Source of the DNA: Candidatus Thiodiazotropha endolucinida | GTDB taxonomy: Bacteria > Pseudomonadota > Gammaproteobacteria > Chromatiales > Chromatiaceae | Direction: 5' to 3' | NCBI RefSeq assembly: GCF_001715975.1 | Contig: NZ_MARB01000001.1 | Coordinates: 233,910-297,909 of the forward strand | Length of the DNA stretch: 64,000 nt | Shown here: positions 2 to 28,907 of the stretch, one piece after another | How positions within the stretch are numbered: the stretch's first letter is position 1 | Layout: each line of letters starts with the position of its first letter | The notes under the pieces: model-generated | Database searches by the model: none | What the model saw: the letters and a program-made list of their open reading frames with translations, nothing else | What the model was told of the DNA's origin: nothing | Translations under genes and position numbers: made by a program

Positions 2-2116
2 GATTGGGATACCTGGTGGGATATTCAACTTGAAGCCGTGAAGGCCTTGGGTATGGCCGGTGACGAGAAGGCGGTTGACGAACTTGTTGCTTTCATCGAT
101 GACGACGCTCAACAGGATATCGAAAACGAGGTCTTGAACGCACTGGTTTCGATTTCCGGTATGGGTCTCGATCGAGTGATAGAACGCTTGCAGGACACAT
201 CGATCAAATCACTCCATCGGCGTCGAGCGGCACGTGCTCTGGCAAATACACGGTTGGTAAAGGCCACCAAGATCCTCGGCCGCTCGCTACAGGACCCGGA
301 TCCGGAAGTGAGGGCCGAAGCCGTCCATGCATTGGCAAGCCAGAATGCGGATCGTTATCTCAGTGCCCTGGTATTGTTGTTACGCGATCAAAACGGAGAG
401 GTCCGTGACGCCGCAATCAAGGCGGTTTCCCATTTGGCGCAACGGGCCAGCGGATCTAAGGCTCTGCAGGAGACGTTGTTGCCGATATTGAACGATCCCA
501 GCAGCCCGGTCAGGGCGACGGTTATGAATGCACTCATGCCCAGCGTTCATAACAAACCGCTTTCACATGAATATTATCAAATCGTGGTATCCGGTAGTTT
601 TGACGACAATGCCGAATCCGCTGCCGCCGCTTGTCGTTTGCTTGGTGAAAACGGGGATCCCGAGGCGATTTCAACACTGTTGGAACATGCTCGAAACCGG
701 GAAGGTCACCCGATGGTGCGCCGGGACGCGATCCTGTCGATTGGCCGGTTTGGTCAGGTTACCGAGGCGATTGTCGAAGTGTTGATGAATGCCGTGGGTG
801 ATTCGCAACAGGCGGTCAGACTGGCAGCGTTGACGACGCTTATGTCATTAGACACGCATCATGTTGAGGCGGATGAGTCGTCACAACCGAAACAGACAAC
901 GATACGTCCACTTTCCATCGTTATTGATGCGGTCCAAGGCTCAATTCGCGTCCCCGATAAAAATGCTACGGTCAAGGAACAGGCAGAAGATGGGATGGAC
1001 CAGCCTGAGGTTTCGGAAACGGAGGTTCAAAATGGTGTCGTAGTCGAATTTGATACCAGCCTGGAGAATACATTCACTGATGCGTCAGCGGATCCTGACT
1101 TACCGAATCAGCCGCCCGTTCCCCAGGAGATCACCGATACGATCAAATTGCCGGATATCCCGGCACAGATCGTCGAGGCCGGTGAGGTGTCGCTCGCCAT
1201 GTCCACCTTGGACGCCATCGCCATGGACAATGTCGATTCGATGTTTGATCAGGAGAAGCCGCAACGGGAAGCGCCTGAGATCGATGAGGCAACTCGGGAA
1301 TACCTCGATGTGGTGGAGGCGAATAAGGCGGAGATGAGAAGAATCCGCGCCAGCAAACGCATGACTCCCGACCAGGATGTGAGACGTCTCGGCACCCGGG
1401 CACTGGCTGTAGCGAATGACGATGAGGCCATTGAAGCATTGATTTTGGCATTGAACGATCAGGATGACCTGATACGCCGGGAAGCGGCTGAAGCGATTGG
1501 CGAAATGGCTCAACGTAATCGTAAGAATCCTAAATTGATGGATGCAGTGGGTACCCTGGTCACCCAACTGGCAGTGGGTGATCTGGAGCAGAAAATCGCC
1601 TGTGCCCGCAGTTTAAGCCTGCTTGGCAACCGAGCTGCGCTGGTACCGTTGACGGAGGCGCTGAAGGATCAGCAGGCCAATGTGCGGGTTGAAACAATTC
1701 ATAGCCTCGCCAGGCTCTGTTGTGACAGTCTGGACCCGGTGCAAGCGGAACATATGGTGGTAAGAGATCTTCCTTCAACCAGCGTGGCGCGAAAACTATT
1801 GGCTTGTCTCGGTGACGACAGTATCGGGGTTAGGGTTGCAGCAACCAGAGGCTTGGCGAAGATCCTGCCGGCCGCAGATGACAAAACCTTAACGCAACAT
1901 GCCGTTGATCGGATTATAGCCAGCGTCATTGAATTTACGGGTGAGGAGGCACGTCAGGTGGGTCAGGCGTTGCGTGCATTTGACACATCAATGATTAACA
2001 AAGCCCTGCTCGTGCAACTCAGGGCAGCCGAGGATAGTGTTAAACGCAGTGTGTTCATTGAAATGATTGAAGAGATACTCAAACCTGACCGGCGGCAGCC
2101 GGATCAGGCTGCCTGA
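2..2116 (+). CDS. HEAT-repeat protein, 5' end outside window
   Basis: The frame is open back to base 2 with no stop and already reads as HEAT helices there, so the gene starts upstream of the window; 704 residues are visible. Two blocks of paired amphipathic helices with repeated VR.EA...L and IRREAAEAIGEMA-like units flank a charged, proline-containing linker of roughly 130 residues (nt about 870-1260). HEAT solenoids are protein-binding scaffolds. No signal peptide can be judged because the N-terminus is missing. The next gene begins 29 nt downstream, so it heads or continues the operon running to about 9157. A scaffold role in assembling a redox enzyme or cofactor is inference from neighbours; no specific partner is visible. 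Confidence 0.85.
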   Translation, partial: DWDTWWDIQLEAVKALGMAGDEKAVDELVAFIDDDAQQDIENEVLNALVSISGMGLDRVIERLQDTSIKSLHRRRAARALANTRLVKATKILGRSLQDPDPEVRAEAVHALASQNADRYLSALVLLLRDQNGEVRDAAIKAVSHLAQRASGSKALQETLLPILNDPSSPVRATVMNALMPSVHNKPLSHEYYQIVVSGSFDDNAESAAAACRLLGENGDPEAISTLLEHARNREGHPMVRRDAILSIGRFGQVTEAIVEVLMNAVGDSQQAVRLAALTTLMSLDTHHVEADESSQPKQTTIRPLSIVIDAVQGSIRVPDKNATVKEQAEDGMDQPEVSETEVQNGVVVEFDTSLENTFTDASADPDLPNQPPVPQEITDTIKLPDIPAQIVEAGEVSLAMSTLDAIAMDNVDSMFDQEKPQREAPEIDEATREYLDVVEANKAEMRRIRASKRMTPDQDVRRLGTRALAVANDDEAIEALILALNDQDDLIRREAAEAIGEMAQRNRKNPKLMDAVGTLVTQLAVGDLEQKIACARSLSLLGNRAALVPLTEALKDQQANVRVETIHSLARLCCDSLDPVQAEHMVVRDLPSTSVARKLLACLGDDSIGVRVAATRGLAKILPAADDKTLTQHAVDRIIASVIEFTGEEARQVGQALRAFDTSMINKALLVQLRAAEDSVKRSVFIEMIEEILKPDRRQPDQAA

Positions 2117-2145
2117 CACCAGGATCGAAACCAGGAGAATAATCC

Positions 2146-2889
2146 ATGAAACAACTACTTGTTGGCATTAGTTTGGCCGGCCTCTGTGCAGTATCGAATG
2201 TTGGATATGCGGCCGCCTATAAAGAGGGTGCGGTGAGCAATGGCGGGACGATTACAGGCAGTGTGAAATTTGCCGGCAAGGATAAGGATCCGAAGGTATA
2301 CAGCATCACCAAGGATAATGATGTCTGCGGAACCGGTCAGCGCAAAATAGACTATGTGCGTGTCAACAACGGTCACTTGATGGATACCGTGGTCTACCTT
2401 GAGAAAGTCAAGGAGGGCAAACCCTTCCCGGCAGATGTGGGTGATGCCAGCATCGATCAGAAGGGGTGTGAGTTCAATCCATTTCTCCAGGTTATGAAAA
2501 ACAAGAGCAAGCTGTCAGCCGTCAATTCCGATCCTGTGTTGCACAATATCCATACCTACGAATTGATTCGAGGCGATGCCAAGGGGCCGAAGAAGACGCT
2601 GACGAATGTCAGTCAGCCTGACCCGGGCACGGTCACAAATACCATCAAGATGAAAAGAGGACCGGCGATCAAAGTGGAATGTGACGCCCATGATTTCATG
2701 CATGGTTTCGTTTTTGTGGCAAAGAATCCCTATTTCGCCAAAGTTGCGGAAGACGGCACTTTCAGCATCGGTGACGTGCCTCCCGGTTCATACACGATCA
2801 AGGTCTGGCATGGCATGCTCAAGAATAAGAAGGCTAAGGTCAAGGTGGAAGCCGGCGGAACCGCCACAGTCGATTTCACATTTAAATAA
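2146..2889 (+). CDS. Secreted cupredoxin-like protein with C-terminal carboxypeptidase-regulatory-like fold
   Basis: 247 residues. Residues 1-23 form a signal peptide ending near YAAA. A plastocyanin-like ligand set is visible: H133 (HNIH), C179, H182 and M185 in the CxxHxxM arrangement, suggesting a type 1 copper site. The last 50 residues (DGTFSIGDVPPGSYTIKVWH) match the pattern of carboxypeptidase-regulatory / DUF4198-like beta domains often labelled methylamine utilization proteins. The product should be periplasmic and could carry electrons or copper. Start ATG follows AGGAG and an in-frame stop lies 6 nt upstream. It sits between the HEAT gene and a tiny membrane protein gene in one operon. 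Copper binding is predicted from residues only. Confidence 0.8.
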   Translation: MKQLLVGISLAGLCAVSNVGYAAAYKEGAVSNGGTITGSVKFAGKDKDPKVYSITKDNDVCGTGQRKIDYVRVNNGHLMDTVVYLEKVKEGKPFPADVGDASIDQKGCEFNPFLQVMKNKSKLSAVNSDPVLHNIHTYELIRGDAKGPKKTLTNVSQPDPGTVTNTIKMKRGPAIKVECDAHDFMHGFVFVAKNPYFAKVAEDGTFSIGDVPPGSYTIKVWHGMLKNKKAKVKVEAGGTATVDFTFK

Positions 2890-2892
2890 GCC

Positions 2893-3024
2893 ATGTTGTC
2901 GAATCCTGCAAATACCGATAAGCGGCAGTGGCGCATAAGCCTGATGGACACGATGGCCATCATCGCCGCGATCATCAACATGTTGGTAATCGGTATTATC
3001 GTTGGCTACTGGTTTATGCGGTAA
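2893..3024 (+). CDS. Small single-span membrane protein (43 aa)
   Basis: A 43-codon frame starts 3 nt after the cupredoxin-like gene. Residues 1-17 are polar (MLSNPANTDKRQWRISLMD), then about 22 hydrophobic residues (AIIAAIINMLVIGIIVGYWF) form one membrane helix ending in MR. The position inside a tightly packed operon and the clear amphipathic design support a real gene. No family is recognised. A role as a membrane anchor or assembly subunit for a neighbour is a guess. Confidence 0.6.
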   Translation: MLSNPANTDKRQWRISLMDTMAIIAAIINMLVIGIIVGYWFMR

Positions 3025-3084
3025 TCCGACACATATGGGGGTAGTCTGAGTTCCGCTCCCAACAGATCGAGAGAGGCATCGATC

Positions 3085-5373
3085 ATGAGTGCACAGGTTC
3101 GTTCGGAGAAACAGGCGTCTGATTCATTGCCCGGTTATGAATCGATTTTATTGGCAGTGGACTCTTCCGACCACTCCAACCGCGGCATCCTCGAAGCCGT
3201 GAAACTGGTTGATGCATTCAACAGCAGGCTTACCGCCGCCCATGTCTATGCAGCCAAGCTGCACGACCTGCGCTTTCGTCAGATGGAGGGGGGGTTGCCG
3301 GAACAGTTTCGCGCAGAGCAAGAGCTGGAACGACAAAGGGATGTGCATGACGATCTGATCACCCGCGGACTCTCGATCATTACCGACTCCTATCTGGATC
3401 AGGTTGATCAGGCTGTTGAAGATGAGGCCATCCCTGTTGCGCGACGCTCCCTGGAGGGAAAGAACTACCGCGAACTGACGAATGAGGCCAACAGCGGCGA
3501 ATATGATCTCCTGGTAATGGGCGCCCTGGGGCTGGGGGCCGTTAAAGGGAGTCGTCTGGGTACCGTCTGTCAGCGTGTCACCCGCCGATCACGCATCGAT
3601 ACGCTGGTTATCAAGAATCCCACACAATCGCTTGAACAGGGGCCGATCGTGGTGGGTATCGATGGATCTGCCAAGTCATATGGCGGGCTGTTGACATCAC
3701 TTTCACTGGCCAGGGCATGGGGGGTCGAAGTGAAAGCGGTCTCCGCATTCGATCCCTATTACCACTATGTGGCATTCAACCGGATCGCCGGTGTGCTATC
3801 GGATGAGGCGGGCAAGGTGTTCAAGTTCAAGGAGCAGGAAAAACTCCATGAGGAGATCATCGATTCCGGGTTGGCGAAAATCTACCAGGGACATCTGGCG
3901 GTCGCCCGGGCTGTCGCCGGCGATTATGGCATGGAGATCGAGACGGTGCTGCTGGATGGCAAACCGCATGAAGTCATCAATCGCTACCTGGCTGGCGTGA
4001 AGCCATCCCTGCTGATATTGGGGACGACGGGCATCCATGCCGATGGTGAACTGGATATCGGCGGTAACAGCGAGTATCTGCTTAACGATGTCGAGTGTGC
4101 CGTGCTGCTCAGCCAACGTAAGTACAGCCCTCAGGTTGATCGTCTTGCCTCCGTATCGACATCCTGGACCCATGAAGCGGAACAGCGTATGCAGCGGGTT
4201 CCCTCTTTTGTTCGGAGTATGGCGCGGATGGCGATTCTCAGATATGCCCAGGAGAAGGGACATACCGTGATCAGCGAAAAGATTGTTGAAGAGGCCACTG
4301 CTCAGCTGATGCCGGGACATGCCGAGCAGGCGATGTCGGAGATCGTCGGGGCCTATGACCGTGGCGAACTGAATCACAAGCCTGACGCCAAGGCGGCAAT
4401 ACGCTGGAGCGAGGCGGCGACAAAACTACTGCTGAGTATCGATGATCTCAGTCTGCGCGGCAATCTCAGTATGCGGGCCGAAAAAAAGGCCAGGGCCGCA
4501 GACAGCCTTCAGGTTGAAGCGGTGCATATTCAAGGCTTTCTTGATGAGGGCATAGCAGTAAAAGGGGAGGCGCCTGTTGTAACGACCCAACCATCCGAAT
4601 CCAACCCGGATGAAAAGGGCATCTCCCCGCCTGATTTTCAGTGGCATGCCGCAGCGCTGGCGCGTCTGATGCGGGTGCCTGAGGGATTCATGCGCGACAG
4701 TTCCAGACAGCGTATCGAGTTGTATGCGCAACGTCAGGGAATTTCAGAGATCAGTCTCGAGACAGCTGAAGCCGGGCTGGCTGAGGCCCGCAAGGCCATG
4801 CAAGGGATGCAGAGTGACAAGCAGCCCGATCCAACGGGGGCTCAGCGCACCGGCGCCTGTCCATTCGCCGCACCCGATATGGCAGTGGCCAATAAGGACA
4901 ATACATCAGCATCCGGTACCCCTTCATGGACAGCCGAAGCCAAGGCGAAACTACAGTCTGTACCGATCGGATTCTGCCGTGATATGACTGTTAGCGCCGC
5001 TGATTCGATTGCCCGTCACCAGGGTGTTGAGACGGTGGACGACCGCTTTCTCTCCCAGGTGCTGGATACCATTAAAAACGGATCGGCAGCTGTTGAGACA
5101 AGCCTGCCCTGGAGTGAGGAGGCGACACTTCGACTGCAAAAGGTTCCCGATTTTGTGCGTGGCATGCTGGTGCGTGAGATCGAAGGCTGGGTGGACCGAG
5201 AGGGTGGGTCCTCGGTTGGGTTGGAAGCAGTGGATGCGGTTAAGGCGCAGTGGCGGCAGCGGGGCGTATTCCACCTTGACCCAAATGATCCCAGAAGTCG
5301 GATGCAGGGCAGTGCAGAGACTTCATCCCCAGCAGCGGATACGGACGAATCCAAGCCGGGTCGGTTCCAATGA
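3085..5373 (+). CDS. Double universal stress protein with C-terminal PCP_red-like repeats
   Basis: 762 residues. Two Usp domains come first (about 17-175 and 185-340; each ends in a nucleotide-binding-like GxxG segment such as VMGALGLGAVKGSR). The C-terminal half has five copies of a helical repeat with the pattern W..EA...L..VP.F.R......E..A...G, starting near W361, W441 (degenerate), W520, W615 and W676. This matches the PCP_red domain (Pfam 'Proto-chlorophyllide reductase 57 kD subunit') known from the C-terminus of BchB/ChlB. No signal peptide, so cytoplasmic. Its last codons overlap the radical SAM gene by ATGA, and that protein carries the same repeats, so the two very likely act together. 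The combination has no function known to me. Confidence 0.85.
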   Translation: MSAQVRSEKQASDSLPGYESILLAVDSSDHSNRGILEAVKLVDAFNSRLTAAHVYAAKLHDLRFRQMEGGLPEQFRAEQELERQRDVHDDLITRGLSIITDSYLDQVDQAVEDEAIPVARRSLEGKNYRELTNEANSGEYDLLVMGALGLGAVKGSRLGTVCQRVTRRSRIDTLVIKNPTQSLEQGPIVVGIDGSAKSYGGLLTSLSLARAWGVEVKAVSAFDPYYHYVAFNRIAGVLSDEAGKVFKFKEQEKLHEEIIDSGLAKIYQGHLAVARAVAGDYGMEIETVLLDGKPHEVINRYLAGVKPSLLILGTTGIHADGELDIGGNSEYLLNDVECAVLLSQRKYSPQVDRLASVSTSWTHEAEQRMQRVPSFVRSMARMAILRYAQEKGHTVISEKIVEEATAQLMPGHAEQAMSEIVGAYDRGELNHKPDAKAAIRWSEAATKLLLSIDDLSLRGNLSMRAEKKARAADSLQVEAVHIQGFLDEGIAVKGEAPVVTTQPSESNPDEKGISPPDFQWHAAALARLMRVPEGFMRDSSRQRIELYAQRQGISEISLETAEAGLAEARKAMQGMQSDKQPDPTGAQRTGACPFAAPDMAVANKDNTSASGTPSWTAEAKAKLQSVPIGFCRDMTVSAADSIARHQGVETVDDRFLSQVLDTIKNGSAAVETSLPWSEEATLRLQKVPDFVRGMLVREIEGWVDREGGSSVGLEAVDAVKAQWRQRGVFHLDPNDPRSRMQGSAETSSPAADTDESKPGRFQ

Positions 5374-7409
5374 ACAACAGCGACCTGTTTCTGCTGGCCG
5401 TAAATCTGACCCGCCGCTGTAACCTCGCTTGTGCTCACTGTTACATGGATGCCGATACCCGCATGGGTGGTGGAAGTGATGAGTTGAGTACGGTTGAAAT
5501 CACGCAACTACTCGATGAGATCGCCTCCCGAACGACAGAAACCATGGTGGTCTTGACCGGTGGTGAGCCGTTGCTGCGTCGGGATCTGGAGTTATTGGTT
5601 GCACACGGCAGCGGGCTTGGACTGTCTATGGTCGTCGGTACCAATGGGGTGTTGCTCAATGAAGATCGGGTCAAGGCACTGAAGCAGGCGGGCGTATTGG
5701 GGATGGGGATCAGCCTGGACTCCCTGGATGCTCAAAGCCACGACAACTTTCGCGGCTGTCCGGGCAGCTGGGAAAGAACCCTTGCCGGCATGGATCTCTG
5801 CCGCCAGCATGACCTTCCGTTTCAAGTCCACTTTTCGGTGACGGAACAGAATGCCCATGAAGTCGATTCGATGATCGACTTTGCCAAGGCCGTGGGTGCG
5901 TATGTGTTGAATGTCTTTTTTCTGATCTGTACCGGCCGGGGCGAGTCAATGTCGGATATCACGCCGGCCCGATATGAACAGGTTTTGTTGCAACTGGTAC
6001 AGGCCCAGGAAAAGACAGAGGATCTGATCGTGCGTGCCCGTTGCGCACCGCATTTCAAACGGGTGGCCTACCAGTCGAATCCTGAATCCAGCATGACCCT
6101 TGCTCAGGGCTATGAGGGGGGTGGATGTCTGGCTGGTATTCACTGTTGCCGGATCACACCGGAGGGCGGGGTCACGGCTTGTCCCTATATTCCTGATGAG
6201 GAGGGATCGATCCGAATCGGAAGCTTCTGGGAGATTTGGGATCAAACGCCGACTTTCGGCCTGCTGCGTCACCCCAAACTGGAAGGTAAGTGCGGCAAGT
6301 GCGAATACCAAAAGCTGTGCGGCGGTTGTCGGGCGCGGCCGCTTGCCATGGGCGGCACATTGATGGATGCAGACCCCTGGTGTGGTCACTATCCGTCCGG
6401 TGAGCCGGTTATCGAACCCCTGAGGGAATCGCAAGACAGCTCGGTGATCTGGAGCAGTGAGGCTGAACAGCGGCTGTCACACGTGCCGGGGTTCCTGCGC
6501 AAAATGGTACGCAAACGTGCCGAGTCCTATGTCAGCGAACTGGGTGAGAAAATTGTCACCACGGAGCATATGGCTGTTTTGGCGGCGAAACGCTTCGGCG
6601 ACAAATTTCCAGCCAAACGTCCCCCCCACGCCAGCAGTGACCATGCGGAGACATTCGCGGAGTTTTCCACCAGCGGCTTTGCCTGGACCCAGGAGGCCAG
6701 AGCCTACCTGGATGCACTACCGGGTTTTCTGCGCGAAGGGGTCTTCGCCGTTGCGGAGGATGTTGCGCGCGAAGAGGGTCGTCTGGAAGTGAATATCAAA
6801 CTCCTGCAGCGCTTGGAGGAAGAGGATACGCCAGGTCGCAAACTCCCTTGGGAAGTCGCCGCTGAAACGCTGTTGTCGAGGAATCTGGCTGATCGACCAC
6901 CCCAAGTCAAAATGTTTGTTCAACCCAGCGTGGAAGCTGCTGCCGAACGGGAGGCCAAGCGCCGCCATGCGATAGTTGTTTCGGCCGATGATGTCGCAAG
7001 GATCATAGAGACAGGGCTTGCGGGTGTGGAATGGGAGCAAGAGGCGCTCGAGCGTGTGGAATCGGCGCCTGAGTTTGTCCGCGGCGGTATCAAGAAGGCT
7101 GCGGAATTCGGTGCCCGTCGTGAGGGGCTTTCAGTAATTACGTCCGAGGATCTGACCCGCTTTCGCAACCGGGCAATGATGAAAGCGGTGCGCCGTATGA
7201 AAGGATTTGGTATGCAGGAGTTGAATTTCGATGCCTTTACCATCGCTAAACAGCGCGTACCGCGTTTGAAGGAAAATCTTCAGGCTGAAAAACGTTTTGC
7301 CGAGATCAAGCGCTATGTGGAATCTAAACAGGCCCCCGACGGGAGCGGGCTCGGTCTGTTGGACAGGGATTTGCTTGAAAAGATGAAGGCGGAGTTAAGA
7401 CGCAAATGA
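5370..7409 (+). CDS. Radical SAM/SPASM protein of AhbD/NirJ type with C-terminal PCP_red-like repeats
   Basis: 679 residues. The radical SAM cluster motif C17-x3-C21-x2-C24 (CNLACAHC) opens the protein, GGEPLLR follows, and a SPASM-type Cys region runs from about C253 to residue 340, including CGKC (C308 onward) and the CGGCRAR motif typical of haem-modifying enzymes AhbC, AhbD and NirJ. The rest holds three PCP_red-like repeats beginning near W361, W439 and W555, the same module as in the upstream protein. Family members modify tetrapyrrole side chains or peptides. A haem-related substrate is inferred from the CGGCRAR motif and the protoporphyrinogen-oxidase-like gene next door, which it overlaps by 4 nt. 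The substrate is unknown. Confidence 0.85.
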   Translation: MNNSDLFLLAVNLTRRCNLACAHCYMDADTRMGGGSDELSTVEITQLLDEIASRTTETMVVLTGGEPLLRRDLELLVAHGSGLGLSMVVGTNGVLLNEDRVKALKQAGVLGMGISLDSLDAQSHDNFRGCPGSWERTLAGMDLCRQHDLPFQVHFSVTEQNAHEVDSMIDFAKAVGAYVLNVFFLICTGRGESMSDITPARYEQVLLQLVQAQEKTEDLIVRARCAPHFKRVAYQSNPESSMTLAQGYEGGGCLAGIHCCRITPEGGVTACPYIPDEEGSIRIGSFWEIWDQTPTFGLLRHPKLEGKCGKCEYQKLCGGCRARPLAMGGTLMDADPWCGHYPSGEPVIEPLRESQDSSVIWSSEAEQRLSHVPGFLRKMVRKRAESYVSELGEKIVTTEHMAVLAAKRFGDKFPAKRPPHASSDHAETFAEFSTSGFAWTQEARAYLDALPGFLREGVFAVAEDVAREEGRLEVNIKLLQRLEEEDTPGRKLPWEVAAETLLSRNLADRPPQVKMFVQPSVEAAAEREAKRRHAIVVSADDVARIIETGLAGVEWEQEALERVESAPEFVRGGIKKAAEFGARREGLSVITSEDLTRFRNRAMMKAVRRMKGFGMQELNFDAFTIAKQRVPRLKENLQAEKRFAEIKRYVESKQAPDGSGLGLLDRDLLEKMKAELRRK

Positions 7410-8812
7410 GCAGCGCCTCCGTACTGATCATCGGCGGTGGTATATCCGGGCTTTCTACGGCCTGGTGGTTGGCGCAACAAGGGATTGGGGTTGAGATCTG
7501 GGAGGCGGACGATCAACCGGGCGGCTTGATACGGACAACCCGGGAGGCGGGCTATACCAGTGAGCGTGCAGCCGGCCTGGTGGTGAACTTCAGGAAGGAA
7601 GTCGACCAGGTGATACTTCAGACAGGGCTGATGCGGAGAAAACGACTGCGAGACGAGTCACTGAAGCGGTATCTGGTGCACCGGGGTGATTTGGTCGAAG
7701 TGCCCATGTTGATGCCGGCACTGCTGGCTTCGCCGCTGTGGAGCCTTCCGGCCAAACTGCGGCTAATGGCTGAAATCCTGATACCGAGGGGCCGCAGGGA
7801 CGATGAGTCGGTCTCTACATTCATAAGGCGTCGCTTGGGTCGGGAAATACTCGACACAGCGATGGACCCATTTGTCTCGGGGACCCTGGCCTCCGATCCG
7901 GATCTGGCCGAGGCCAGGTCGGTACTCCCCAGGCTCAAGGCACTGGAAAGGCGCTACGGCAGCCTGATCTTGGGCATGATGATCAATCGTGTGCTGAAAC
8001 GTCGTCGGGCGAACAAGGCGGATACGTTCTCATTTTCGGGGGGTATGTCGGCACTGATCGAGGCACTGGCGGCAACACCCGGTGTGACCCTGCGCTGCGG
8101 CATGCGTGTCGAATCCGTGATCAGAAAAGGAGACTGTTGGCAGGTAAAAGCAGATCAAGCGGGGGTACAGTATCAGAAGTGGGTACCCCGCTTGGTGTTG
8201 AGCACCCCGGCCGATATCAGCGCTGACCTGCTGATGCAGACAGATACGGTTCTGGGGCGGCTGCTGGCGCAGATAGCGTATGCGCCGGTGGCGGTATTGC
8301 ACATCGGTCTGCCGAGCAGTGGGATCAAACACCCGCTGGACGGCACCGGTTTTCTTGTGTCTCGCGAGAACGGTTTGGCATTCAATGGCAATCTCTGGAT
8401 GAGCCGGCTGTTTCCGGAAAGAACGCCAACTGACAGAACGCTGTTGACCACCTATCTGGGTGGTGTCCGTCACCCGCAGCAGGTTGACCTGAGCGATGAA
8501 CAGTTGGCAACGGTTGTTCTCTCCGAATTAAAGCCTTTGCTCGGTATCACGGCTTCAGCCGAATACGTCAGGGTTGACCGTCACCGCAGGGGGTTACCTC
8601 TCTATCACGGTCAATACCAGGCACGCCTGGAAAAGATAGAACATCGCTTGGATAGTCTGCCTGGTCTCTATCTCAACGGTAACTACCAACACGGCGTCTC
8701 TGTCAGAGAACGGCTGTACCAAGGCCACCGGCTGGCGCAAAAAATAGCTGTTAAACTGAACACAGGAGAGCGATTGTTCAGCCGGGAGCCGTCGTTTGTT
8801 CTGGCGAGATGA
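7406..8812 (+). CDS. Protoporphyrinogen oxidase-like FAD-dependent amine oxidase family protein
   Basis: 468 residues. The N-terminus has the dinucleotide-binding motif GGGISGLSTAWWLA, then an acidic residue and the second glycine motif DDQPGGLIRT, as in FAD-dependent HemY/HemG-type porphyrinogen oxidases and amine oxidases. The C-terminal LPGLYLNGNYQHGVSVRERLYQG segment matches the end of that fold, where the second half of the FAD site is formed. The family oxidises porphyrinogens or related substrates. Start overlaps the radical SAM gene (ATGA). Whether it serves general haem synthesis or a modified tetrapyrrole for this cluster cannot be decided here; the context favours a dedicated role. 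Confidence 0.8.
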   Translation: MSSASVLIIGGGISGLSTAWWLAQQGIGVEIWEADDQPGGLIRTTREAGYTSERAAGLVVNFRKEVDQVILQTGLMRRKRLRDESLKRYLVHRGDLVEVPMLMPALLASPLWSLPAKLRLMAEILIPRGRRDDESVSTFIRRRLGREILDTAMDPFVSGTLASDPDLAEARSVLPRLKALERRYGSLILGMMINRVLKRRRANKADTFSFSGGMSALIEALAATPGVTLRCGMRVESVIRKGDCWQVKADQAGVQYQKWVPRLVLSTPADISADLLMQTDTVLGRLLAQIAYAPVAVLHIGLPSSGIKHPLDGTGFLVSRENGLAFNGNLWMSRLFPERTPTDRTLLTTYLGGVRHPQQVDLSDEQLATVVLSELKPLLGITASAEYVRVDRHRRGLPLYHGQYQARLEKIEHRLDSLPGLYLNGNYQHGVSVRERLYQGHRLAQKIAVKLNTGERLFSREPSFVLAR

Positions 8813-8824
8813 CGGACGCGGCAA

Positions 8825-9157
8825 ATGGCAAGGCATGAGGCTCCACAGACGGCAGATGCAGCACCGTTTCACCCCGTCAGATTGATCCTGATCATTCTGT
8901 TGATTCTGTTCTCGATCTCCATGGCGGCGCAGTGGTATGGCGAGAACGTCACCATGCCTCGATATTGTCAATATCCCGGTGATGTGATCGGGCGCGTTAG
9001 GCAGGTTTTGAACGAGAAAGAACCTGCCGGTGAGGGTGATCGCAAACCCTACATAATCGCTGCCAGGTTGATGTTTCTTGTGCCGCGCCACAATGACGAA
9101 AAGCAAAATGATTATATCTTGAGACTGCAACAGCATATCGATAAACAATGCCGATAA
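8825..9157 (+). CDS. Small membrane protein of unknown function (110 aa)
   Basis: 110 residues with one hydrophobic helix near residues 19-36 (LILIILLILFSISMAAQW) followed by a polar domain with two cysteines (PRYCQYPG and the final KQCR), predicted to face the periplasm. It begins 13 nt after the oxidase gene and overlaps the sensor kinase start by 10 nt, so it joins the two groups of genes. No family recognised. It could be an accessory of the kinase or the last member of the PCP_red cluster. Confidence 0.65.
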   Translation: MARHEAPQTADAAPFHPVRLILIILLILFSISMAAQWYGENVTMPRYCQYPGDVIGRVRQVLNEKEPAGEGDRKPYIIAARLMFLVPRHNDEKQNDYILRLQQHIDKQCR

Positions 9158-11760
9158 CGCATCCGCCACCACCGGTTACACGCCTCGGGCTGTTGAAGGG
9201 CTTCATGGCCATCTTCATACCCATGTGCCTGGTGTTGATGATTATCGGAGCTATGCATTACTACACCTTCTATACCACCGAACGATCTTCTATCGAGTCT
9301 CGTGAGCTGCTCAATGTGGACCTGGCAAAACGGATGATCGAGAAGGATATCGCCGATGTTGTCAGTGACTTGCTGTTTCTGGCGGAGCACATTGAGCGTC
9401 GGGGACTGCCTGAAGCATTGCCCTGGTCAAGAGAACAGCAAATCTCCGAAGAGTTCAAGATCTTCGCGAAAAATAAAGGGTTCTACGATCAGATTCGCTA
9501 CATCGACAATACCGGCATGGAAGTGGTGCGTATCAACTACTCAAATGGCGAGAGCCGGGTTGTACCGGAGTCTAAACTGCAAAATAAAAGCAGCCGTTAC
9601 TATTTCAAGGAAGGGCTGGCCTTGGATCGTGGCTATATCTATCTATCACCATTTGATCTGAACATGGAAGAGGGGGAGATCGAATTTCCCCTGAAACCGG
9701 TGATCCGCTTCGGTACACCGGTATTCGATAGTCATGGGGAGAAGCGCGGGATTGTGCTGTTGAACTATTTAGGCGACCGGTTGATTCAGAATTTCACCCG
9801 CGCTGCGGCGAATATCGCCGACCATATCGAACTGGTAAACAACGATGGCTATTGGCTGAGCAGCCCGAGGCAGGAAGATGAGTGGGGTTTCATGCTCGGC
9901 CATGAAGCCCGTTTTCAAAAGAACAATGCCGATGCGTGGCGGATAATCACTGAAAATAATAAGGGCCAAATACAGACCGAAAGCGGACTATTTACCTACA
10001 CCACTATTCACCCTTTCGTTACCACGATCAGAGATACCGCGTCCGTACAGGAGATTACAGAGATATATGAGGGGACTGGGTATTACTGGAAAATAGTCTC
10101 CCGCCTATCATCCCGGGAACTGTCGGCGACATTGCCGCTTTTTATCCAGAATCACTCCGCACTCTATTTTGCAATGCTTTTATTGGTGATGGGAGTGGCG
10201 TGGCTGCTTGCCTATTCACAACAACATCACAGGGCGGCAATGGCGCAGAGAGATTATGAACAACGCTTCCGCTATACACTCGAAAATATTGAACTGGCGG
10301 CAGTGACCCTCAACCTTAAAGGCGAGGTGACATTCTGCAATGATTATTTTCTCAAGATAACCGGCTGGAATAAGCATGATGTCATTGGCAGGAATTGGTT
10401 GCAGCAATTCGTGCCTGATGAGTTGGTGTCGGAAATCGATGGGATCATTCGGCGTATGCCCGATCCGGACATTTTTCCTCTTCGCTACGAGAGCGAAGTC
10501 AAATGTAAAAATGGTGAGCATCGGTTAATTACCTGGAACAACACGCTCTCTTTCGATGCCGACAACCATGTCATCGGTGCTACCGGTATTGGTGAGGATA
10601 TAACGGATAAGCGAAAAGCGGAAACCGATATATTAAAACTCTCCCAGGCGGTAGAACAGAGCCCAAGCGTTGTTATTATCACGAATGACCAGGGCCTGAT
10701 TGAATATGTAAACCCGAAATTTACCGAAGTGTCCGGTTATGAGCCGGCAGAGGTCTTGGGTCAAAATCCACGTATTCTCAAGTCGGGAGAAACAAGTCAG
10801 GAGGAGTATAAGGATCTATGGAATACAGTGATAAACGGGAGAGAGTGGCGCGGCGAATTTCATAACCGGCGAAAAAACGGTGAGCTCTACTGGGAAGGAG
10901 CCATCATATCCGGCATAAGGAATTCAGAGGGTAAGATAACTCATTTTTTGGCGGTTAAAGAAGATATATCGGAAAGGAAGCGGCTTGAAGCGGAAGTTGA
11001 GAAGCAGCACAGGGATCTTGCCAGGTCTGAAGTGTTGGCGGCAATGGGCAGGATGGCGAGTATGATCGCCCATGATCTGCGTAATCCGCTCTCGTCGGTA
11101 AAAATGACGCTGCAGATTTTAAGTAAACAATTGGATGTGAACAGGGATTCAGAGGTCCGGGAACTTTGCAACACTTCTCTTGAGCAGATCAGGTACATGG
11201 AAGAGATTCTGTCAGACATGCTCACCTATTCTCTGCCTGACGCACTGAAGCTGGAATGGTTGACGATCGATAAGATCATCGATATGGCGATCAGCCTTTC
11301 GCAGCGTAGAATCGATGAAAACAGGATCAAATTGGTCATCAACTACCATCCGGGTTTGCCAACCCTGTATGCAGATGCCACCAAGCTCAGACAGGTCTTT
11401 TCCAACCTGATTTCCAATGCCGCACAATCCACCGAGTCCAGTAACGATCCGATGGTGGTTATCGATGTCATGCTCGAACTTGGTTTGGAAGGAACCGCAA
11501 TCCGCATAGAGATTTGTGATAACGGTTGTGGTATCGACAAGCATGAAAGGGAGAAAATTTTCGAACCTTTCTTTACTACCAGGGCAAAGGGTACAGGTTT
11601 AGGACTGGCGATTGTCAAACGGATTCTTGATCAGCACCAGGCCAATATATCAGTGACAGATAATACCCCTTGTGGAAGTTGCGTCACCGTTGTGATACCT
11701 GTCAGGCATCAAGTGATCAGTGATGAAAGCGCCGTGAATATACAGGAGAAAGTCACATGA
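9148..11760 (+). CDS. Membrane sensor histidine kinase with periplasmic domain and two PAS domains
   Basis: 870 residues. A first membrane helix lies near residues 14-36, a large periplasmic segment of about 300 residues (Cache-like by layout) follows, then a second helix near 335-355 (ALYFAMLLLVMGVAWLLAY). Two PAS domains occupy about 370-490 and 500-620. The dimerisation box contains H642 (MIAHDLRNPL), and the ATPase part shows N and G boxes (SNLISNAAQS, DNGCGID, GTGLGLAIV). It should sense a periplasmic or redox signal and phosphorylate the response regulator encoded immediately downstream with a 4-nt overlap. The signal is unknown. It is distinct from the HupT-like kinase at 58823. Confidence 0.9.
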   Translation: MPITHPPPPVTRLGLLKGFMAIFIPMCLVLMIIGAMHYYTFYTTERSSIESRELLNVDLAKRMIEKDIADVVSDLLFLAEHIERRGLPEALPWSREQQISEEFKIFAKNKGFYDQIRYIDNTGMEVVRINYSNGESRVVPESKLQNKSSRYYFKEGLALDRGYIYLSPFDLNMEEGEIEFPLKPVIRFGTPVFDSHGEKRGIVLLNYLGDRLIQNFTRAAANIADHIELVNNDGYWLSSPRQEDEWGFMLGHEARFQKNNADAWRIITENNKGQIQTESGLFTYTTIHPFVTTIRDTASVQEITEIYEGTGYYWKIVSRLSSRELSATLPLFIQNHSALYFAMLLLVMGVAWLLAYSQQHHRAAMAQRDYEQRFRYTLENIELAAVTLNLKGEVTFCNDYFLKITGWNKHDVIGRNWLQQFVPDELVSEIDGIIRRMPDPDIFPLRYESEVKCKNGEHRLITWNNTLSFDADNHVIGATGIGEDITDKRKAETDILKLSQAVEQSPSVVIITNDQGLIEYVNPKFTEVSGYEPAEVLGQNPRILKSGETSQEEYKDLWNTVINGREWRGEFHNRRKNGELYWEGAIISGIRNSEGKITHFLAVKEDISERKRLEAEVEKQHRDLARSEVLAAMGRMASMIAHDLRNPLSSVKMTLQILSKQLDVNRDSEVRELCNTSLEQIRYMEEILSDMLTYSLPDALKLEWLTIDKIIDMAISLSQRRIDENRIKLVINYHPGLPTLYADATKLRQVFSNLISNAAQSTESSNDPMVVIDVMLELGLEGTAIRIEICDNGCGIDKHEREKIFEPFFTTRAKGTGLGLAIVKRILDQHQANISVTDNTPCGSCVTVVIPVRHQVISDESAVNIQEKVT

Positions 11761-13157
11761 GCAGGATACTGATTGTCGATGATGACGAAGCCAGCTGCAG
11801 AACACTTCAGTTTCATTTGCGTAGTCAGAATCATAGTGTCGAAATCACAGGCAGCGTCGATGAGGGATTGGCTGTTGCAGACTCATATCATCCTGACTTG
11901 ATTATATTGGATATTAGAATGCCGGGACGATCGGGTCTGGAAGGGTTACCGGACTTTATAAAGTTACTGCCTAGTGTCCATGTAATTATGATTACGGCAT
12001 TTCATGATATGGAAAGCACAATCGAAGCCATGCAGCAAGGTGCCGAGGACTATATCCACAAACCGATCGACATCGACGAGCTGGATACCTCCATTGCACG
12101 TCTGTTGACCAAAAAGGGGGATACCGACAACCTGCTGATCCCTACCTCACCAGAGAATATCGGGGATGCCTTGAGCATGGTCGGGCGCAGCCGCGCCATG
12201 AAAGAGATATTCAAGACCATCGGTCTGGTGGCAAAAAGCCCGGCATCGGTGTTGATCACCGGGGAGTCGGGGACCGGCAAGGAGTTGGTGGCGAGGGCCA
12301 TCCACCGGTCCAGTCAAAATCCCAATGGTCCGTTCGTTGCGGTCAACTGCGCGGCGCTGGTGGAAACATTGCTCGAGTCAGATATGTTCGGCCATGAAAA
12401 AGGTGCGTTTACCGGTGCCGTGGTGAGGCAAGAGGGCAAGTTCTCATTGGCGCGCGGCGGGACGATTTTTCTCGATGAGGTGGGGGAATTGTCACCTGGC
12501 ATGCAGGCCAAGCTGCTGCGGGTGCTGCAATATAAGGAATTTACGCCATTGGGCGCCAAGGAATCGCAAACAACCAATGCCAGAGTGATTACCGCGACGA
12601 ATGTCGACCTGGCTGAAAAGGTCAGCGAGAAGAGCTTTCGCGAGGATCTGTACTATCGGTTGCAGGTTGTCAATATTCATCTGCCGCCGCTACGTGAGCG
12701 TAAAGAAGATCTGATGGATCTGATCCAAACACTCCTGGGTCGGATCAATAAAGAGTTGCATAGAAATGTTACACATATCAACAAGGAAGTGTTGGAGGCA
12801 TTTGAACGCTATGAGTGGCCCGGTAATGTACGTGAACTGGAGAATATCCTGATGAAGAGTATCGCCTTGTCTCAAGGTGACGCATTGACCAGGGATCAGC
12901 TCCCTGAACCATTGAGGATGGACAACACACAATTCTCGGGTCATCCCCGTGAAGCCAGGCCGCTGACTGAACAAAGCCTTGAGGATATCGAGAGGATACA
13001 TGTAAAACGCGTCCTGGATGCAACCGGATGGCACAAGGGCCAAGCTTGCGAAATACTCGGGATTTCGAGGCCGCGGTTGCGCCGCTTGATCCGTCAATAT
13101 GACTTAATCTCAGACCATGATATCGAGGTCGACAGCGAGATGAATGAAGATGCATAG
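11757..13157 (+). CDS. NtrC-type sigma54 response regulator
   Basis: 466 residues. Receiver domain with phospho-acceptor D52 (LIILDIRMPG), central AAA+ domain with Walker A GESGTGKE and the sigma54-contact loop GAFTGA, arginine-finger region FREDLYYRL, and a C-terminal Fis-like helix-turn-helix (ACEILGISRPRLRRLIRQY). It is translationally coupled to the kinase gene (ATGA) and ends about 170 bp before a strong -24/-12 promoter serving hupSL. It may activate that promoter, the cluster upstream, or both; this is inference from position. A second NtrC-type regulator, HoxA-like, is at 57208. Confidence 0.9.
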   Translation: MSRILIVDDDEASCRTLQFHLRSQNHSVEITGSVDEGLAVADSYHPDLIILDIRMPGRSGLEGLPDFIKLLPSVHVIMITAFHDMESTIEAMQQGAEDYIHKPIDIDELDTSIARLLTKKGDTDNLLIPTSPENIGDALSMVGRSRAMKEIFKTIGLVAKSPASVLITGESGTGKELVARAIHRSSQNPNGPFVAVNCAALVETLLESDMFGHEKGAFTGAVVRQEGKFSLARGGTIFLDEVGELSPGMQAKLLRVLQYKEFTPLGAKESQTTNARVITATNVDLAEKVSEKSFREDLYYRLQVVNIHLPPLRERKEDLMDLIQTLLGRINKELHRNVTHINKEVLEAFERYEWPGNVRELENILMKSIALSQGDALTRDQLPEPLRMDNTQFSGHPREARPLTEQSLEDIERIHVKRVLDATGWHKGQACEILGISRPRLRRLIRQYDLISDHDIEVDSEMNEDA

Positions 13158-13346: not shown

Positions 13347-13392
13347 GATTTAACATTGCATATCTGGTTTGTTGATTCGGAGGCAGAGGATA

Positions 13393-14472
13393 ATGACCGA
13401 GACATTTTATGATGTGATGCGGCGGCAAGGAATCACTCGCCGTAGTTTTCTGAAATTCTGCAGCCTGACGGCCTCTGCGCTCGGGCTTGGGCCCGCAGTG
13501 GTACCGCGTATCGCCGAGGCGATGGAGAGCAAGCCACGCATTCCGGTGTTATGGCTGCATGGTCTGGAATGTACCTGCTGTTCCGAATCGTTCATCCGCT
13601 CGGCGCATCCATTGGCGAAAGACGTGGTGCTGTCGATGATCTCACTTGACTACGACGACACCATCATGGCCGCTGCCGGCCATCAGGCGGAAGCGATTGT
13701 GGAAGAGACCATTGAAAAGTATGACGGCAACTTCATCCTTGCGGTGGAGGGTAATCCGCCACTGGACGAGGATGGCATGTACTGCATCATCGGCGGCAAG
13801 CCATTCGTCGATCAGTTGAAGATGACCGCCGAACACTGCAAGGCGATCATCTCCTGGGGTTCCTGTGCCTCATGGGGATGCGTTCAGGCCGCACGTCCCA
13901 ATCCGACTCGTGCCACGCCGGTGCATAAGGTGCCGGGTCTGGCCAATAAGCCGATCATCAAGGTGCCCGGTTGCCCTCCCATCGCCGAAGTCATGACAGC
14001 CGTGGTGACCTACATCCTGACCTTCGAGAAATTCCCCGAGTTGGATCGTCAGGGCAGACCCAAGATGTTCTACAGTCAGCGGATCCACGACAAATGTTAT
14101 CGTCGACCCCATTTCGATGCGGGACAGTTTGTCGAGGCCTGGGATGACGACTCCGCCAGGAAGGGATACTGCCTCTACAAAATGGGTTGTAAAGGGCCGA
14201 CCACCTATAACGCTTGCTCAACTGTTCGTTGGAACGGCGGGCTCTCCTTTCCGATCCAGGCAGGCCATGGCTGTATCGGTTGTTCCGAAGACGGTTTCTG
14301 GGACAAGGGTAGTTTCTATCAGCACGTAACCGATACCCATCAATTCGGGGTCGAGGCCAATGCCGATAAGGTCGGCCTGGCCGCTGCCGGGATCGTCGGC
14401 GCCACGGCCGCCGCCCACGCAGCCGTTACCGCGATCAAGAATGCGCAGAAGAAAGGAGATCAGGATCAATGA
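13393..14472 (+). CDS. hupS: Uptake [NiFe]-hydrogenase small subunit, O2-tolerant type
   Basis: 359 residues from ATG 13393, chosen because it follows GGAGGCAGAGGA and directly gives a Tat signal with RRSFLKF at residues 16-22; an upstream in-frame TTG at 13369 lies only about 12 nt after the predicted transcription start. The proximal cluster region shows C60, C62, C63 and C158, C163, the two extra cysteines (CTCC and GSCASWGC) that mark the six-Cys [4Fe-3S] cluster of O2-tolerant group 1d enzymes. The C-terminus has a hydrophobic anchor (about 325-350). It passes electrons from the HupL active site to cytochrome b (HupC) at the periplasmic membrane face. ATGA overlap with hupL. Confidence 0.96.
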
Positions 14473-16265
14473 GTACCAAGACCACTCCCAACGGTTATAC
14501 CCTGGACGACTCCGGTCAGCGCGTCGTCGTCGATCCGGTGACCCGCATCGAGGGCCATATGCGCTGCGAGGTTAACGTGGATGAGGAGAATATCATTCGC
14601 AATGCGGTTTCCACCGGCACCATGTGGCGCGGGCTTGAGGTGATTCTCAAGGGACGTGACCCCAGAGATGCCTGGGCCTTTACACAGCGTATCTGTGGCG
14701 TCTGTACCGGTACCCATGCATTGACATCCGTGCGTGCGGTCGAGGATGCGCTGAAGATCGAGATTCCGGAAAATGCCAACTCGATTCGTAATATCATGCA
14801 GTTGACCCTGCAGGCTCACGATCACCTGGTCCACTTCTACCATCTGCACGCATTGGACTGGGTCAATCCGGTGAATGCCCTGAAGGCAAATCCGAAGGCG
14901 ACTTCAGAACTGCAGCAGAAGGTTTCACCAAAGCACGCCAAATCGTCCCCCGGGTATTTTCGCGATATTCAGAATCGCCTGAAGAAATTCATAGAGAGCG
15001 GTCAGCTGGGGCCCTTCAAAAACGGCTACTGGACCAATCCGGCCTATCTGTTGCCGCCGGAGGCCGATCTGATGGCGGTAACCCACTATCTGGAGGCCCT
15101 CGACTTTCAGAAAGAGATCATGAAGATCCGCACTATCCTGGGCGGTAAGGATCCCCATCCCAACTGGCTGGTGGGGGGCGTGCCCTGTCCCATCAATGTG
15201 GACGGTGTAGGTTCGGTGGGTGCGCTCAACATGGTGTCACTGAACCAGATCTCATCGATCATCGACAGCACTCGTGAATTCGTGAAAAACGTCTATATTC
15301 CGGACATCCTGGCGGTGGGGCAGTTCTATAAGGGATGGCTCTATGGCGGCGGCATCTCAGGCACCAGCGTACTGGCCTATGGCGACATTCCCGATCGGGC
15401 CAACGACTACTCCCCAGGCAATCTGCTGATGCCCAGCGGCGCCATTATCGACGGTAATCTGAAGGAGGTGCATGAGGTCGACCTGCGTAATCCGGATGAG
15501 ATCCAGGAGTTCGTACCCCACTCCTGGTACAACTATCCGGACGGTGTCAAAGGCCTGCATCCCTGGGATGGTATCACCGAGGATAACTTCCAGCTTGGGC
15601 CCAATACCAAGGGAACCAAGACCGACATCGAGCAGATCGACGAGAATGCCAAATACTCCTGGATCAAGGCACCGCGTTGGCGCGGTCACGCCATGGAGGT
15701 GGGACCGCTGGCCCGTTACGTGATCGGTTACGCCAAGGGCCACGAGGAGATCACCGAGCAGATCAATTTCGTGCTCAAAACCCTCGATGTACCGGTCACT
15801 GCGCTCTTCTCCACTCTCGGCCGCACCGCGGCGCGTGCCCTGGAGGCAGACTGGGCCGGCGATAAGATGCGCTACTTCATGGACAAGATGATCGCCAATA
15901 TCAAGGCGGGCGACTCAAGTACGGCCAACGTGGACAACTGGGATCCCGCCACCTGGCCCAAGGAGGCCAAGGGGGTCGGTATCAGTGAAGCGCCGCGGGG
16001 CGCACTTGGTCACTGGATCCGCATCAAGGATACCCGCATCGACAACTATCAGTGTGTGGTCCCCACTACCTGGAACGGATCACCACGCGACAGTGAGGGC
16101 AATATCGGTGCCTTCGAGGCCTCGTTGATGAATACCAAGGTAGCCAGAGCAGAGGAACCGGTGGAGATCCTGCGTACCTTGCACAGTTTCGATCCCTGTC
16201 TTGCCTGTTCCACCCATGTGATGAGTGATGAGGGAAGGGAGTTGGCGAAGGTGAAGGTACGGTGA
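14469..16265 (+). CDS. hupL: Uptake [NiFe]-hydrogenase large subunit
   Basis: 598 residues. The N-terminal nickel-ligand motif RICGVC and the C-terminal motif DPCLACSTH are both present; a 15-residue tail ([15 protein letters not shown]) follows the final His, the usual target of the HupD/HyaD-type maturation protease, encoded here at 46696. The gas-channel positions are Val (CGVC) and Leu (HFYHL), as in catalytic enzymes and unlike the sensor HupV at 61202. It splits H2 in the periplasm after co-export with HupS through the Tat pathway. Operon with hupS (4-nt overlap). Confidence 0.97.
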
Positions 16266-28826: not shown

Positions 28827-28907
28827 GAAAACCTGTAACGAGGAATGGGATGTATCCTACAAATTGTTACGGGAACAGAGCAATCCATTGAACTTGGAGG
28901 AGAAGAA

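Follow-up and report, generated by a model that had tools for sequence, protein, structure and literature searches.

The window considered here, a stretch of 64,000 nucleotides (nt) from the genome of Candidatus Thiodiazotropha endolucinida (C1:233910-297909), opens with 13 kb of genes forming one long plus-strand set. Three of them (hereafter the triad) encode a 762-amino-acid (aa) Usp-Usp-PCP_red protein (3085..5373), a 679-aa radical SAM/SPASM-like protein (5370..7409; AhbD/NirJ group, three to four PCP_red repeats) and a 468-aa HemY-class FAD enzyme resembling protoporphyrinogen oxidase (7406..8812), with a 4-nt overlap at both junctions. Upstream of the window, on the opposite strand, lies an operon for a cytochrome bd-like protein. 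Three genes whose domains are akin to those of haem and chlorophyll biosynthesis, located beside a bd-like respiratory enzyme, suggest that they make or deliver a special haem for it, and on balance we lean slightly towards the triad being a dedicated cassette that provides the bd-like complex with a tetrapyrrole, most probably a haem, by making it, modifying it or handing it over.

In such a cassette the HemY-class enzyme would oxidise a porphyrinogen or haem precursor, and the radical SAM protein, by analogy with AhbC, AhbD and NirJ, could alter propionate or acetate side chains. The Usp domains, with their seven invariant histidines, and the PCP_red repeats may hold the tetrapyrrole and pass it on, and the product would end in the bd-like subunit, either as a side-chain-modified haem or as a private haem b or partly decarboxylated haem obtained via a coproporphyrin-type route. 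A broader proposal, which we put forward only tentatively and consider doubtful, is that bd-like enzymes of sulfur, iron and iodate bacteria use an undescribed haem, made by the radical SAM and HemY-class enzymes with a Usp/PCP_red carrier; its modification would tune the complex for high-potential electron donors or acceptors. A conserved biosynthetic cassette beside bd-like enzymes would predict an unusual haem and would be open to direct genetic test; such a cassette would also put PCP_red outside chlorophyll metabolism, point to a specific role for a Usp protein and enlarge the group of haem-modifying radical SAM enzymes by one.

Profile searches supported the domain composition of the repeat proteins. 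The first triad protein matched PF00582 at 105.9 bits (cut-off 24) over two stretches and PF08369 (PCP_red) at 145.2 bits over the whole protein. The initial annotation, which had proposed running this profile on both repeat proteins, had counted five repeats here; three copies exceeded the 32.5-bit cut-off and a fourth fell just below it (32.2 bits), whereas the fifth, divergent copy was discernible by eye only. For the radical SAM protein the predicted three repeats were all recovered above cut-off, together with a weak fourth at 12.8 bits (whole-protein PF08369 score 112.3 bits). No nitrogenase-like reductase domain was matched by Pfam in any of seven window proteins scanned. In 42 sequences the Usp region retained H53, H60, M67, H88, H227, H255, H270, H318 and C338 without exception.

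The second triad protein (PF04055, 88 bits) was compared with curated radical SAM families. Its two best models were AhbD (TIGR04545, 300 bits against an equivalog cut-off of 500) and NirJ2 (TIGR04055, 295 bits, cut-off 500), with NirJ (TIGR04051) at 153 bits against 515; all three scores lie below their cut-offs. All 26 members scanned matched both of the best models, and every one of these 26 relatives reached E ≤ 1e-20 with the AhbD model. Across 42 sets the invariant cysteines comprised the CX3CX2C motif (C17/C21/C24), C253, C271, the C308xxC311x5C317xxC320 series and C338; the Pfam SPASM model scored below cut-off (14.5 of 21.5 bits), though SPASM-type cysteines were present. The third triad protein exceeded the cut-off of the protoporphyrinogen oxidase model TIGR00562 (252.2 versus 97.85 bits; 251.3 bits for the window locus in the genome scan), and the same model was matched by 24 of 24 HemY copies scanned. 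The tetrapyrrole reading of the initial annotation is strengthened by the AhbD and NirJ2 models, the HemY matches and the link between PCP_red and BchB described below. A modified tetrapyrrole as product, its passage into the bd-like enzyme and a docking function of the shared repeat are putative.

The redox enzyme that had been predicted to lie upstream of base 1 was present there as the divergent bd-like operon, which comprises 51-aa and 50-aa open reading frames (ORFs; sm51 and sm50, membrane-like by eye and with no Pfam match), the bd-like gene, cytochrome genes and SCO1. The 635-aa bd-like protein matched PF01654 (cytochrome bd subunit I) at 85 bits over profile positions 2-251 of 418 only. 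Its significant match to bd oxidases in PDB was likewise limited to the N-terminal half, and it is not a canonical full-length subunit I with a quinol loop. Two histidines, H107 and H273, were invariant in 42 sequences; the former aligned with residue H21 of a 5doq chain and H33 of 9r2g, whereas the latter met a histidine in 9r2g and missed one by a single column in 5doq. In canonical bd oxidase, histidines of the N-terminal half serve as haem ligands. Y187, invariant in 18 sequences, aligned with E101 of 5doq, and E334 resembled the conserved active-site glutamate by eye only. The operon also encodes a 277-aa c-type cytochrome and an 803-aa protein combining c-type and ethylbenzene-dehydrogenase-type domains. 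CydB was not among the eight proteins scanned at the locus (the whole genome was not searched for it).

A scan of named genomes returned 293 stretches with a relative of the Usp-PCP_red protein, the best 80 of which were used as a set of 80 loci (alignments A4, A5 and A6 were built from 25, 25 and 23 hand-picked loci of this set). Carriers among these best 80 included Ca. Thiodiazotropha, Sedimenticola, tubeworm symbionts, Thiothrix and Parabeggiatoa, as well as Gallionella, Ferrigenium, a Parvularculaceae bacterium and Mariprofundus. Radical SAM, HemY and bd-like genes were found in 75, 70 and 47 of the 80 loci, respectively. Where enough sequence was available, the radical SAM gene immediately followed the Usp-PCP_red gene in 69 of 72 loci and HemY lay within the locus in 64 of 66; the bd-like gene lay within the locus in 35 of the 41 with at least 8.5 kb of sequence on both sides. 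A genome-wide search (E ≤ 1e-40) for 34 loci, namely 33 without a bd-like gene in the locus plus L079, recovered one for 24, so that the gene is present, inside the locus or at another place in the genome, for 70 of 80 loci in total. The conserved neighbourhood with a linked redox enzyme that the initial annotation had anticipated was therefore present in many genomes, and since the gene order recurs elsewhere while triad identity in the closer forms is about 50-80%, the arrangement is not a chance one. No match to the Usp-PCP_red protein was obtained from plasmids (tblastn).

A second form of the cluster, seen in Gallionella and Mariprofundus, keeps the bd-like gene, cytochromes, Usp-PCP_red, radical SAM and HemY genes. 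Because both the triad and the bd-like complex are kept in this form, together they represent the likely core. Genes for the HEAT, cupredoxin-like and 43-aa proteins and the kinase, all encoded alongside the triad in the window, were not seen in the Gallionella and Mariprofundus stretches examined; the HEAT, cupredoxin-like and 43-aa proteins were rejected as core members on this ground and look accessory.

Co-occurrence was assessed in a class-level set of 274 genomes (thresholds of E ≤ 1e-40 for Usp-PCP_red, 1e-70 for radical SAM and 1e-60 for bd-like proteins), which overlaps with the named-locus set in that L091 and G228 look like one record. The Usp-PCP_red protein was detected in 10 genomes, the radical SAM protein in the same 10 and the bd-like protein in 11; nine genomes had both the bd-like and radical SAM proteins, two the bd-like protein only, one the radical SAM protein only and 262 neither (Fisher p ~ 3e-14, indicative only, the genomes being related). 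G214 yielded no bd-like match; its Usp-PCP_red and radical SAM genes sit where a short contig ends. In G093, a 430-contig draft without a Usp or radical SAM match, the bd-like gene and HemY are on different contigs; beside the bd-like gene are HEAT and cupredoxin-like genes followed by the 110-aa gene, the triad being skipped. Protein distances, compared for the window and for those 41 of the 80 loci in which each of the four proteins is nearly complete, correlated strongly within the triad (0.73-0.86).

The occurrence of PCP_red outside the cluster was examined in a phylum-level set of 398 genomes scanned with PF08369 at E ≤ 1e-6. Matches were found in 36 genomes, and in 30 the best match was BchB, each of these 30 proteins matching BchB models at E ≤ 1e-100; second PF08369 proteins in BchB genomes were BchZ in all three cases checked. 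Five of the other six genomes carried a cluster protein or a piece of one. Usp-PCP_red, radical SAM, HemY and bd-like genes were all present in G359 and G591, the window genome being the third full case, and G555 contributed a radical SAM tail at a contig end. In G371 (L184:4247-7560) radical SAM and Usp-PCP_red proteins were present at 46% and 51% identity, a possible stand-alone use of this pair. The remaining genome, G408, encodes a free 58-aa PCP_red protein (L187:7927-8103), near which no cluster genes were found except weak histidine kinase matches. PF08369 is listed among phototrophy markers in a trait-mapping paper (PMC12815261); such use would mislead in carriers of the Usp-PCP_red/radical SAM cluster.

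Several observations weigh against a haem cassette dedicated to the bd-like complex. No bd-like gene was found in the genomes of 10 of the 80 loci, mostly drafts; one of these loci, L067, lies on a 4.1-Mb scaffold and its first 9 kb, ahead of the triad, are free of gaps, so that the missing bd-like gene is not explained by a contig end. Conversely, the 97% complete genome G194 carries bd-like and cytochrome genes, on an 8.6-kb contig, but gave no match to the triad. In G371, which has the Usp-PCP_red and radical SAM genes, neither HemY nor a bd-like gene was detected within the 16 kb examined. Distances between triad proteins and the bd-like protein correlated at only 0.41-0.47, a moderate value that weakens a strict one-to-one partnership. 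The window radical SAM protein falls under the cut-off of every curated family compared, and was thus not filed as AhbD or NirJ. Canonical cytochrome bd is not known to need such genes for its haem d. Lastly, cluster genomes without HemJ, another protoporphyrinogen oxidase, also fit an ordinary protoporphyrinogen oxidase role for the cluster HemY.

The most probable of the alternatives is an ordinary supply of haem b, in which HemY is a proto- or coproporphyrinogen oxidase, the radical SAM protein an AhbD-type decarboxylase, and both answer the high demand of a cytochrome-rich operon with nothing modified. We regard it as unlikely, even with HemY passing TIGR00562. In a test of 23 genomes (10 with the cluster, two with the bd-like protein only and 11 with neither, hand-picked from the 262), HemY exceeded its cut-off in 10 of 10 cluster genomes and in one of the other 13, the bd-like-bearing G093, and was absent from the remaining 12. 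Its presence thus tracks the cluster in these genomes, and HemY as a chance neighbour was rejected. HemJ was found in 21 of 23 genomes, including 8 of 10 cluster genomes, so most of these carriers should be able to make ordinary haem without HemY. When HemJ (PF03653) was also tested in the genomes of 40 hand-picked loci of the 80, it was present in 24.

HemJ was not found in the window genome (G000), in G214 or in the other 16 of the 40 named cluster genomes, which include all six Ca. Thiodiazotropha tested and ten others, all with the cluster HemY; in such carriers the cluster enzyme apparently replaces HemJ. HemG was not found in G000 either (other HemJ-less genomes were not searched for it): the sole PF12724 match there was a sub-cut-off FMN_red/flavodoxin-type protein, and HemG activity was rejected for it. 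The cluster HemY is consequently the only protoporphyrinogen oxidase found in G000, which favours the ordinary haem b supply. Because HemJ-less genomes carry it and G000 shows no HemG, these results suggest that the cluster HemY acts on porphyrinogens, and in the window's own lineage, where HemJ is missing, it may be the general enzyme. Against an ordinary supply stand, besides the retention of HemJ in most carriers, the radical SAM score far under the AhbD cut-off and the Usp-PCP_red protein, which this explanation leaves without a role.

Protein modification, in which the SPASM-type radical SAM enzyme would modify a residue of the 50-, 51- or 43-aa protein or of the bd-like subunit while PCP_red binds that peptide, appears improbable. 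Many SPASM proteins act on peptides, PDB relatives of the radical SAM protein include SkfB and PqqE, all 26 members scanned also match peptide-type models (PqqE, mycofactocin), and sm50 and sm51 accompany the bd-like gene. For the window copy, however, the haem-type models outscore the peptide-type ones (AhbD 300 versus mycofactocin 123 bits), and the HemY partner, like the PCP_red repeat, argues for tetrapyrroles. Of the 80 loci, many of which are truncated at contig ends, only 31 have sm43, the 43-aa protein, and only 35 have sm50.

Regulatory signals may link the two operons. A sigma-54-like site was located 43 nt upstream of the HEAT gene start. The core TGGYN8TGC of the sigma-54 consensus was then counted, up to 120 nt from each operon start, in 33 regions between the divergent operons: 27 have it before the HEAT operon (shuffles predict 0.34), 19 before the bd operon (0.71 predicted) and 14 before both; these counts concern related regions and a core chosen after a looser first scan. 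In a control, upstream of histidine kinase and HemY ORFs, the core was seen in 1 of 110. With sites before both operons and a sigma-54 activation domain (230.7 bits) in the cluster's regulator, a single regulon comprising the two operons is plausible. That Usp-PCP_red merely senses or stores a tetrapyrrole or ATP under stress, its bd link being shared sigma-54 regulation only, would accord with these sites and with a G-2x-G-9x-G(T) ATP motif seen by eye in the first Usp domain, but is very improbable given its near-constant adjacency to radical SAM and HemY and the strong distance correlation among the three proteins.

The genes around the triad complete the plus-strand set, and all calls of the initial annotation in this region (HEAT, secreted, 43-aa, Usp-PCP_red, radical SAM and HemY class, with the 4-nt overlaps) were placed correctly. 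Upstream lies the 3' part of a HEAT-repeat protein gene (2..2116; HEAT_2, 149.5 bits), truncated by the window edge; the complete protein has 824 aa (ORF L010:7552-10026) and its gene starts 359 nt before the window. It is followed by a gene for a secreted 247-aa protein (2146..2889; signal peptide by eye) that combines a cupredoxin-like H/C/H/M ligand set with a C-terminal domain of CarboxypepD_reg-like type, its Pfam matches being CarboxypepD_reg/fn3_3. Its earlier description as cupredoxin-like held in part: no cupredoxin model was matched in the Pfam scan, but the copper-type ligand set (H133, H136, C179, H182 and M185) was identical in 44 of 44 homologues longer than 200 aa, and a copper role may be proposed from this set, as judged by eye. 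A 43-aa membrane protein with a single helix (by eye; 2893..3024) precedes the triad.

Downstream of HemY, all on the plus strand, are genes for a 110-aa protein, probably membrane-anchored (by eye; 8825..9157), with no family above cut-off in Pfam and NCBI model scans, an 870-aa PAS sensor histidine kinase (9148..11760; PAS_9 105, HATPase_c 86.9 and HisKA 52.3 bits) and an NtrC-type response regulator, the sigma-54 activator mentioned above (11757..13157; Response_reg 89.7 bits). Among the 80 loci, the 110-aa protein was found in 45, the kinase in 40 and the activator in 35, again with many loci cut by contig ends. Directly after the regulator, the window encodes the small and large subunits of a [NiFe] hydrogenase (13369-16265; NiFe_hyd_SSU_C 110.9 and NiFeSe_Hases 746.2 bits), and further on a pyrroloquinoline quinone (PQQ)-dependent alcohol-dehydrogenase-type protein (28845-30677; PF01011, 228 bits).

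Beyond the bd operon, the window genome carries a molybdopterin enzyme, a Rieske subunit and two MauG-type proteins (L009:6877-12524, minus strand). The first two exceed NCBI arsenite-oxidase-type cut-offs (393 versus 359 and 111 versus 96 bits; AioA/IdrA-like), and the gene order corresponds to the idrABP1P2 layout of iodate reductase. Genes of this type stand beside the cluster in the window genome, G219, G125 and G359 (in the last, the contig breaks off after P2, P1 and part of B). In G218, G203 and G154 none was detected downstream of the bd operon within the sequence examined, and most of the 80 loci have too little flanking sequence to judge. In G014, a type II dimethyl sulfoxide (DMSO)-reductase-like set lies between the triad and the bd operon (298 bits, below the cut-off of 985), in a layout that is presumably nitrite oxidoreductase-like. 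This set, at L022:12531-20000, comprises alpha, beta, chaperone and haem-b genes, none of which reaches the cut-off of its model. Beside the second cluster form, L086:734-2566 encodes a clade III lactonase-type nitrous-oxide reductase (NF052460, 724 versus 700 bits), homologues of which occur in 11 of the 80 loci including L086, mostly in Gallionella-type genomes (single-linkage blastp, the other ten by blastp only). Because neighbouring partner enzymes vary between genomes, the bd-like module may serve several high-potential electron donors or acceptors.

Among known systems, the nir cluster for haem d1 of cytochrome cd1 nitrite reductase offers a close parallel to the dedicated haem cassette that we favour, a tetrapyrrole-modifying radical SAM enzyme (NirJ) being dedicated there, as may be the case here by analogy, to one respiratory enzyme. 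According to PMC7242693, NirJ removes the ring A/B propionates, and AhbD acts in the sirohaem-dependent haem pathway, which is our source of analogy for the triad. NirF, NirN and NirDLGH were not recognised among the locus proteins scanned (the genome was not searched for them); unlike in the nir cluster, the partners here are HemY and Usp-PCP_red and the presumed target is bd-like. AhbD, the haem b synthase, is alike as best model and in its cysteine motifs, whereas the radical SAM protein described here has C-terminal PCP_red repeats and a HemY partner. The cluster HemY shares with HemY/CgoX the match to TIGR00562, but occurs among the 23 genomes only with the cluster or the bd-like gene, and usually beside HemJ. 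With BchB and BchZ of the dark protochlorophyllide and chlorophyllide reductases the triad shares PCP_red, a domain with a solved structure (2kru) and matches in 2xdq and 2ynm; the Usp and radical SAM proteins here carry three to five copies of it.

The bd-like protein itself has counterparts in the oxidases of Nitrospira, Nitrospina and Kuenenia (OR-N/OR-C) and in TO_1 of Manganitrophaceae, which share a CydA-like N-terminal part, the absence of an adjacent CydB, and c-type and EB_dh-type cytochromes. The enzymes of Nitrospina, Nitrospira and Kuenenia are reported to lack the quinol loop (PMC3578206), and bd-like enzymes are described for Nitrospinota (PMC10839748) and Manganitrophaceae (PMC9040806). 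The main texts of all three do not contain the term 'radical SAM', and those of PMC3578206 and PMC10839748 contain neither 'protoporphyrinogen' nor 'universal stress'; no description of the triad cassette was found in the literature searched, where subscription journals were mostly missing. Reported from nitrite and manganese oxidisers, bd-like enzymes are seen here in genomes of sulfur and iron oxidisers, and cofactor genes grouped next to a respiratory enzyme are a known arrangement, here with partners that would be new.

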